NCBI GenBank assembly: GCA_019873625.1
Contig: JAIOAW010000018.1
Span: 1 to 49,695 of the forward strand
Reading direction: 5' to 3'
DNA from: Chloroflexota bacterium
GTDB lineage: Bacteria; Chloroflexota; Anaerolineae; UBA1429
Length of the DNA stretch: 49,695 nt
Shown in pieces: positions 46,322 through 47,897 of this stretch. The notes beneath the pieces are model-generated. The model worked only from the letters and a program-made list of their open reading frames with translations. It searched no databases and had not been told where the DNA came from. The translations under genes were made by a program, and so were the position numbers. Position 1 is the first letter of the stretch. Every line of letters starts with the position of its first letter.

Positions 46322-46693
46322 ATGGCCGAACAGCGGGAGTTCATCTGCGTCGTCTGCCCGGTGGGGTGCACCATCCGGGCCACCGTGGAGGGCAAGGAAA
46401 TCGTCTCCCTCGAAGGGCAGGCCTGCAAGCGCGGCGAGGCCTTTGTCCGCGAGGAGTTGACGGCCCCCAAGCGTATGCTCACCACCACGGTGCGCGTGCG
46501 CGGGGGCCAATATCCCCTCCTGCCGGTGCGCTCTTCGGCCCCTCTGCCCAAAGACAAACTCCTCGCCGCTGCCGCGCTCCTGCGCCAGGTCGAGGTGCAG
46601 GCCCCCGTTGAGGATCACCAGGTCATCGTGCCCAACATCCTTGGGACGGGCGTGGATATCATCGCCAGCCGCCCGCTCGAGGCCGCGCCCTGA
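46322..46693 (+). CDS. DUF1667 protein with CxxC-type cysteine site
   Basis: The 123-residue protein has ICVVCPVGC near the N terminus (C9, C12, C16) and a fourth cysteine at C35 (QACKRG), a probable Fe-S or zinc site. It ends with the segment DHQVIVPNILGTGVDIIASR. This is the third member of the conserved GlpA-like/GlpB-like/DUF1667 set. It is placed 11 bp after the second gene with an AGGAAGGG site. Likely a small electron-transfer subunit, GlpC-like in role only (inference). Confidence 0.85.
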   Translation: MAEQREFICVVCPVGCTIRATVEGKEIVSLEGQACKRGEAFVREELTAPKRMLTTTVRVRGGQYPLLPVRSSAPLPKDKLLAAAALLRQVEVQAPVEDHQVIVPNILGTGVDIIASRPLEAAP

Positions 46694-46897
46694 TCAACGC
46701 GCCCCCCGCGCCGGCTCGCGGAACCACCAGTAGGCGGCCGTCCGCCTGGGGCTGATGCTCGAGGCTGGCCCCAAAAGAGCACCCCCTTTGCGACGCCTCA
46801 CCCCCCGCCGAGGGGCGATGATGAGGCGTCCCTTGGGGGCGCGGTGAACCCCTGCGAGGATGACGAGCGCGACCACAGCTCCGATGAGGACTTCCAT
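46694..46897 (-). CDS. Small single-span membrane protein under LexA-type control
   Basis: The 67-residue product has one membrane helix at the very N terminus (residues ~3-17, VLIGAVVALVILAGV) and a strongly basic cytoplasmic-type tail (APRRGVRRRKGG, then SPRRT and FREPARGAR). An AAGGAGGG ribosome-binding site with normal spacing and a promoter overlapped by two LexA-type boxes lie directly upstream. I know no family for it. Small single-span proteins controlled by LexA in other bacteria (SidA in Caulobacter, YneA in Bacillus) halt cell division; a similar role here is only inference. The stop adjoins the stop of the convergent DUF1667 gene. Confidence 0.68.
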   Translation of the reverse strand: MEVLIGAVVALVILAGVHRAPKGRLIIAPRRGVRRRKGGALLGPASSISPRRTAAYWWFREPARGAR

Positions 46898-46912
46898 CCG
46901 ACCCTCCTTGTG

Positions 46913-46962
46913 GAACGTTTGTTCTATATTTTGAATATAGCACAAACGTTCTAAAGAATCAA
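46913..46962 (-). promoter_or_regulatory. Promoter with two LexA-type boxes in a 39-bp near-perfect palindrome
   Basis: GAAC-GTTT-GTTC at 46913-46924 is an exact GAAC-N4-GTTC box. The second half, 46940-46951, is the same box inverted with one mismatch; the 18-nt arms differ at one base around TTG (46931-46933). On the minus strand TTGATT (46962-46957) and TATATT (46939-46934) are spaced 17 nt. The second box fills the spacer and the first covers the likely start (~46927), the arrangement of a repressed SOS promoter. Confidence 0.75.
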
Positions 46963-46980: not shown

Positions 46981-47031
46981 TTGGAGCGCGAGGCGCCCGC
47001 CTCGCCACGGGCCAGGAGGCCCGCGCTCCAA
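46981..47031. repeat. Intergenic nested inverted-repeat element, copy 3
   Basis: Perfect 10-bp outer arms (46981-46990 and 47022-47031) enclose two further perfect hairpins: AGGCG-CC-CGCCT (46991-47002) and GGGCC-AGGA-GGCCC (47009-47022). The latter recurs in the 1-205 block. This is the shortest and cleanest copy. Confidence 0.62.
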
Positions 47032-47046
47032 AAGGACGGCATGCGT

Positions 47047-47074
47047 TTGACAGGCTCCCCCCAAGCCCTATAAT
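47047..47074 (+). promoter_or_regulatory. Full-consensus promoter of the HAD/ABC-F leader
   Basis: TTGACA (47047-47052) and TATAAT (47069-47074) with a 16-nt spacer. Start near 47081, giving a ~175-nt leader before the HAD gene. Confidence 0.8.
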
Positions 47075-47101
47075 GTGCTCAACCGTTCGGGAGGTTTGGG
47101 A

Positions 47102-47134
47102 ATGGGGATCGCCATCGCGTGCCGGCTTGGGTAA
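47102..47134 (+). CDS. Candidate 10-residue leader peptide
   Basis: ATG at 47102 opens a 10-codon frame (MGIAIACRLG) ending in TAA at 47132-47134. GGGAGG (47089-47094) lies 7 nt before the ATG, an excellent ribosome-binding site in an otherwise untranslated leader. Together with the hairpin terminator at 47203-47235 it fits ribosome-mediated attenuation, as known for several ABC-F resistance genes. The peptide itself matches nothing I know. Confidence 0.55.
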   Translation: MGIAIACRLG

Positions 47135-47202
47135 GAAGGGGTTGCCCTTTGAGGGCGCGTACGCGGCGGCAAACGCAGGGTTGATGTGCGCTTTCAAAAA
47201 GA

Positions 47203-47235
47203 GGCCATGGGCACCCCCATGGCCCTTTTGCTTTT
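47203..47235 (+). terminator. Leader terminator before the HAD/ABC-F genes
   Basis: Perfect 9-bp stem (47203-47211 and 47216-47224, 4-nt loop) followed by CTTTTGCTTTT. It lies between the leader peptide and the HAD gene, so read-through must be regulated or partial for expression of the two genes. Confidence 0.75.
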
Positions 47236-47255
47236 ATAAGGAGCGTCGAGGCGGT

Positions 47256-47897
47256 ATGGGCATCAAGGTCGTTCTGTTCGATTGTGGGGGCGTCCTCCTG
47301 CGCGAGCGGGGTTCTTCTTCGGCCTACCCCACCTGGGAGGCGCGGTTAGGCCTTCAACCCGGCGAACTACGCCGCCTTTTGTGGCAGGGCGAGGCCTGGG
47401 CCTTGGCCGAACGTGGGCAGTTGGACGAGCAAACCTTCTGGGAGCGCGCCGGCGCCTCTTTGGGGATTACGGATCCGCACGAGGTGCGCGCTCTGAGCGA
47501 AGACCTGTGGTACTCCTGGGGGGTGGACCCCCAGGTGCTCGCCCTGGTGGATCGCGCCCGCACGCGCTACCGCGTGGCGATGCTCAGCAACTCGACGAAC
47601 GCCCTGGAGGAATATCTGGAACGCCGCTTTGGCATCGCCGATCGTTTTGAGGTGATTTTCAACTCGGCGCGGCTGGGGGTAGCCAAGCCCGAAAGGGCTA
47701 TTTATGAAGAGGTCTTACGGCGGTTGGGCGTCAAGCCTTCGGAGGTCTTGTTCATTGACGATCAGCCGGCAAATATCGCCGCAGCGGCCGCCTTGGGGAT
47801 GCACGTCATCTGGTTCGTCAGCCCCGAGGAACTGGAACGCCAAATGGCCGCCTATCTCGATCATAATGCCTTAGGCCCCCCCGAAACGCCCCAATAG
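47256..47897 (+). CDS. HAD-superfamily hydrolase (subfamily IA)
   Basis: The 213-residue protein has the HAD motifs: I, VVLFDCGGVL with nucleophile Asp9 or 10 (the second Asp of DxD is replaced by Gly, as in the FDxGGVL branch); II, MLSNSTN; III, the Lys in GVAKPERAIYEE; IV, VLFIDDQPANIAAAAALGM. The cap region (~15-95) is helical. The phosphatase substrate is unknown. AAGGAG lies 12 nt upstream of the ATG. It precedes the ABC-F gene by 14 bp. Confidence 0.88.
   Translation: MGIKVVLFDCGGVLLRERGSSSAYPTWEARLGLQPGELRRLLWQGEAWALAERGQLDEQTFWERAGASLGITDPHEVRALSEDLWYSWGVDPQVLALVDRARTRYRVAMLSNSTNALEEYLERRFGIADRFEVIFNSARLGVAKPERAIYEEVLRRLGVKPSEVLFIDDQPANIAAAAALGMHVIWFVSPEELERQMAAYLDHNALGPPETPQ

Follow-up and report, generated by a model that had tools for sequence, protein, structure and literature searches.

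The 67-residue open reading frame that lies behind two LexA-type boxes in the window (the whole 49,695-nucleotide stretch of Chloroflexota DNA analysed here) is well supported, by its promoter and by its relatives, as the gene of an SOS-regulated, single-span protein. Our best single guess, to which we give a probability of about 0.45, is that this protein acts as an SOS checkpoint that blocks cell division. An earlier note, made from the letters of the window, had proposed a promoter, two boxes, a ribosome-binding site and a 67-residue frame, and all of these were confirmed, on the minus strand (Table 1).

Table 1. Features of the small-gene locus in the window
Feature	Position	Strand	Remark
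DUF1667 gene (PF07892)	46322..46693	+	convergent neighbour; its stop codon abuts the stop of the small ORF
Small ORF, 67 aa	46694..46897	-	predicted helix at residues 2-18 and Arg-rich tail; ATG at 46897, stop codon 46694-46696 included
Shine-Dalgarno AAGGAGG	46903..46909	-	5 nt before the ATG
LexA-type box 2, exact GAACAAACGTTC	46913..46924	-	downstream of the -10; box kept in 12 promoters
39-bp inverted repeat containing both boxes	46913..46951	.	spacing not kept in relatives
-10 hexamer TATATT	46934..46939	-	directly preceded by box 1
LexA-type box 1, GAACGTTTGTGC	46940..46951	-	in the spacer, abuts the -10; TG forms the extended -10
-35 hexamer TTGATT	46957..46962	-	17 bp spacer to TATATT

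The two boxes, which are separated by a gap of 15 bp, were originally described as parts of a near-perfect palindrome. Such an inverted repeat is indeed present (18-nt arms matching at 94%, a 3-nt loop, 39 bp in total), but it is not kept as a unit in relatives, where the boxes lie as little as 7 bp (G002) and as much as 16 bp (G005 and G009) apart. Since the spacing varies, we rejected the palindrome as a single operator and regard it as two pseudo-palindromic operators.

Two further elements lie nearby. Upstream of the small-gene promoter, at 46981-47031, there is an imperfect inverted repeat with 24-nt arms (75%); further occurrences in the genome (L061 and L049) mark it as a dispersed GGAGCGCGGGC-type repeat. 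On the plus strand, at 47047-47236, an intrinsic-terminator-like hairpin (47203-47224) occurs about 130 bp downstream of a perfect TTGACA-16-TATAAT promoter and precedes a HAD gene at 47256; this promoter and hairpin could possibly specify a small RNA or an attenuated leader, for which neither an Rfam match nor a copy among the other loci compared was found.

The boxes by themselves are weak evidence, and it is their context that decides. The exact GAACNNNNGTTC occurs a single time in the whole window, one-mismatch boxes are present there at chance level (14 seen against 13.2 expected), and exact boxes are mildly enriched in the whole 2.76-Mb genome (49 against 37 in the reversed control). One LexA was detected in the genome (PF01726 together with the PF00717 peptidase), encoded on contig C13. 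Its gene has a TTGACA...TATAAT promoter, the spacer of which contains an exact box, GAACATCTGTTC, 67 bp ahead of the start codon. Exact boxes also occupy promoter-like positions upstream of the genes for a UvrD-type helicase and a HerA/FtsK-type ATPase, and another one separates a recN-like gene from a divergent TPR gene. The GAAC-N4-GTTC motif is best read as the LexA operator of this genome, and the operator type of the genome's own lexA overlaps the promoter of the small gene. In the comparison of lexA and recA promoters suggested by the earlier note, lexA has the motif, whereas the recA promoter of this genome contains two-mismatch sites only and no exact box. Within the taxonomic family of uncultured Anaerolineae bacteria to which this genome belongs, an exact box before recA is present in G009 only, but in other families of the class GAACNNNNGTGCTA...GAACNNNNGTTC is found before recA (L065, L066, L067, L076, L091 and L097-L099) and before lexA (L103-L106). 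LexA control of the small gene is supported by the box in the lexA promoter, by the boxes at repair-type genes and by the double box that is kept together with the small ORF across the family.

The architecture of the promoter is the same in all 12 promoters available: the -35 is followed by GAACNNNNGTGC, which merges with an extended -10 (TGCTAnnnT), and then by the exact GAACNNNNGTTC, the Shine-Dalgarno sequence and the start codon. A search for the double-box pattern in the 15 genomes of the family gave 29 strand-matches and 0 in the reversed control, and the arrangement is therefore not due to chance; in the window's own genome the pattern search returned no second site with the double form. 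The first box had been called a one-mismatch copy of the second. It ends in GTGC instead of GTTC in 12 of 12 promoters, the G yielding the TGCTA... of the extended -10. The departure from the LexA consensus would thus seem to be what a strong -10 costs, and the invariant first box would be constrained by this -10. Judged from the promoters compared, the double operator with GTGC is a recurring design in the class.

Double operators were also observed before other genes. Double LexA boxes precede a gene for a product of about 70-86 aa of the VGMLWYDD...DVLPHHFWLG type in other genomes of the family (L125, L130, L132, L133 and L136), and in L051 (box G000:C6:82622); the gene is divergent from a cyclophilin-like gene in some genomes, and the one product scanned had no Pfam match. 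A candidate for an SOS-controlled enzyme of DNA modification or repair is a radical-SAM protein (weak PF04055 match), whose gene stands behind a GTGC double operator in L116 (G005) and L126 (G003). The GTGC double operator and a good ribosome site also precede a 72-aa ORF in another family of the class (L080 in G312 and L107 in G137); it is not similar to the small protein described here, was not counted as a relative, and perhaps encodes an unrelated SOS small protein.

Relatives of the small gene were found by the double-operator pattern first and then by a profile, in genomes that are mostly drafts. The pattern is present in 13 of the 15 family genomes, and in 12 of those 13, the window's own genome included, it is followed after 15-30 bp by a small ORF that has a ribosome-binding site. 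The profile identified the gene in 12 of the 15 genomes, each time behind the double operator, so that operator and gene are kept together in 12 of 12 profile-found members with a visible promoter. Among 396 genomes of the class the 12 members were recovered by the profile search (E from 1e-6 to 1e-27), and outside the family nothing convincing emerged, perhaps because profiles this short have little power. In a leave-one-out HMM test with 2,406 frames as background, all 12 members outscored every unrelated frame, and the protein of the window ranked first (E=3.6e-4). The small ORF and operator of G003 are identical in L167, from Anaerolineae bacterium CSSed165cm_48, by which the window can be assigned to the Anaerolineae of the Chloroflexota. 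By position, two further cases can be recognized, both convergent with DUF1667: a fragment at a contig end in G001, and in G008 a copy with a single exact box and no ATG start, which was missed by the profile. G013 (77% complete) also lacks the neighbouring oxidoreductase gene. Profile matches beyond the family (best E=0.0014) were rejected, as they had internal stops or lay inside longer frames, and a second weak match in G006 (C573, E=2.6e-5) was left aside, there being no LexA box within 150 bp upstream. Searches with the single protein gave no more than background-level matches in whole genomes and nothing usable in genome_contigs; one match in viral_contigs, to residues 18-58 of the basic tail, was taken as compositional, and a DNA search of plasmids found nothing.

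The statement that the small protein has no recognised relative is thus true of the libraries (Pfam, NCBIfam, PHROGs, PADLOC and PDB gave no match that rose above noise), but relatives do exist, being too divergent for database searches. A Pfam Conotoxin match of two members (E=0.004) was dismissed as chance arising from composition. The earlier expectation that the small ORF should be conserved together with its operator was borne out, and the proteins apparently form a new, family-restricted group of SOS small proteins.

In most members with readable surroundings the small gene is convergent into DUF1667, the last gene of a GlpA-like / FAD-NAD oxidoreductase / DUF1667 set. This layout would fit a reading in which the transcript and not the protein matters, with SOS-induced convergent transcription or antisense RNA acting against the DUF1667 operon. 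We consider this highly improbable, since the ribosome site, start, frame, helix and WWWE end are conserved with synonymous changes, and the two stops in the window abut with no overlap. Moreover, in G011 (the same genome as AUK174) the small gene and its operator are located on a contig other than that of DUF1667, which is not followed there by such an ORF, so the pair persists in the absence of this neighbour. The neighbourhood also bears on the possibility that the product is an SOS-induced small membrane adaptor that modulates a transporter, a protease or an envelope enzyme and takes no part in division. Such a mode of action is common among small single-span proteins, and a conserved helix with variable tails would fit a helix-helix partner. 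There is, however, no fixed partner gene (glycerol-phosphate-type operon neighbours in most genomes, other genes in G011), and an adaptor role appears unlikely.

The products of the family are 60-85 aa long, one being cut by a contig end, and in all of them about 15 hydrophobic residues at the N-terminus are followed by an Arg-rich tail. AlphaFold2, run with 12 sequences, predicted a helix at residues 2-18 (mean pLDDT of 97 for residues 1-10 and 85 for residues 11-20), whereas the tail is unstructured in the model apart from a helix at 50-59 of low confidence. The protein was originally described as basic and single-span, and the member sequences and the predicted helix support this. An aspartate ends the helix in every member except the window's own protein. 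The exact WWWE C-terminus is present in 5 of 11 complete members, whereas the window's protein has YWWFRE near its end; the codons of WWWE vary (GAA or GAG, stop TAG or TAA), as expected for selection at the protein level. The positive-inside rule is an established rule of membrane topology, and by this rule the acidic N-terminus and basic tail predict that the tail is inside, so that the Arg-rich tail is probably cytoplasmic.

A tail predicted on the cytoplasmic side, with 7-16 Arg/Lys in complete members and recurring S/T/A-P-R-R patterns (RRRSPRRITPRRR in G006, RRRSPRRVTPRR in G004, TRRAPQRRAPQRRRARR in G003), is what would be expected of a membrane-tethered nucleic-acid binder that would hold on to DNA and so anchor the damaged nucleoid at the membrane, either aiding repair or blocking septation over it. 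Arg-rich disordered tails, however, bind acidic lipids, RNA or proteins too, and the tail of G009 has only 7 basic residues while that of G010 has 6 acidic ones; this reading seems improbable to us.

We prefer the division block, because single-span damage-induced inhibitors stop late division and the family has the machinery that would be the target, FtsZ and FtsW-type SEDS proteins being present in 15 of 15 family genomes. The evidence in the sequence covers the promoter, the boxes, the family-wide conservation and the helix, whereas LexA binding, induction and topology are inferred. The division block is deduced from SOS control, the size of the protein, its single helix, a repression that appears to be tight, and the FtsZ and FtsW present in the family. 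LexA dimers bound to the two operators, in the spacer and over the start region, would keep the extended -10 promoter shut until DNA damage leads to RecA-stimulated self-cleavage of LexA and the promoter opens. The strong ribosome-binding site would then allow a burst of the 60-85-residue protein, whose one N-terminal helix would insert in the membrane, the Arg-rich disordered tail probably remaining in the cytoplasm. The helix may dock on the late divisome, for which FtsW provides a precedent, and septation would be blocked until repair is done.

No SOS checkpoint effector in Chloroflexota was found in the literature searched, and the small gene is one concrete, family-wide candidate. The double LexA operator with the extended -10 joined to it also occurs at recA and lexA in the class and can be used for mapping of SOS regulons there.

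Comparison with known SOS small proteins shows which features are shared, although Pfam and NCBIfam searches gave no sequence similarity to any known inhibitor. SulA is a soluble protein that binds FtsZ; there is no Pfam match for the small protein, for which a single helix with a disordered tail is predicted instead. TisB of Escherichia coli is, like the product of the small gene, a LexA-controlled small hydrophobic peptide; it is 29 aa long, has charged residues in its helix and is paired with an antisense RNA. A membrane-active peptide of this kind, induced by SOS, would lower membrane potential and growth and thereby produce dormant, damage-tolerant cells. The small, basic products with their hydrophobic N-terminus would suit this role, and a double LexA operator is expected for a toxic product. 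The helix here is, however, free of charge (zero charged residues at positions 3-17), no Rfam RNA or antisense partner was recognised at the locus, and the long conserved tail with its WWWE end speaks against such a peptide, which makes this explanation rather doubtful.

YneA of Bacillus subtilis is controlled by LexA through the GAAC-N4-GTTC box type that also precedes the small gene. YneA and ChiZ of Mycobacterium tuberculosis are small and induced by DNA damage and have one N-terminal transmembrane helix; unlike the protein described here, they have a LysM domain, located outside the membrane, and their genes are near lexA, whereas the small protein has no Pfam or NCBIfam match and no LysM, and its basic tail is predicted inside. 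SosA of Staphylococcus (77 aa) is, like the protein proposed here, LexA-controlled and has one helix and no LysM, but its C-terminus is extracellular and its locus lies beside lexA (PMC6851548), as is the case for the Gram-positive inhibitors (PMC6851548); here the tail is predicted inside, the small gene (contig C18) is not adjacent to lexA (C13), and no sequence similarity to SosA was detected. The outside domains of YneA and SosA are needed for activity (PMC13396833, PMC6851548), and the doubt about a division block comes mainly from the opposite predicted topology and the absence of an outside domain. The protein may even represent a new class of SOS checkpoint protein, of inverted topology, in which an N-terminal membrane anchor and a cytoplasmic, DNA-gripping Arg-rich tail, often WWWE-ended, link a damaged nucleoid with the membrane or with FtsW at the septum and thereby stop division from inside, but this elaboration is quite unlikely.

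SidA of Caulobacter is likewise a LexA-controlled small single-span protein, and it inhibits division via FtsW/FtsI/FtsN; no similarity to it was detected through family libraries, and SidA is not known to have an Arg-rich tail. SidA, DidA, YneA, ChiZ and SosA are all SOS- or damage-induced single-span proteins that stop late division (PMC13396833, PMC4211646, PMC6851548), FtsW was proposed as a common target of such inhibitors, and the convergence of single-span SOS inhibitors of division on FtsW is a known theme (PMC13396833). If the division block is true, the small protein would add one more single-span inhibitor to those of the SOS response, apparently unrelated to the others, by which convergence on FtsW can be tested.
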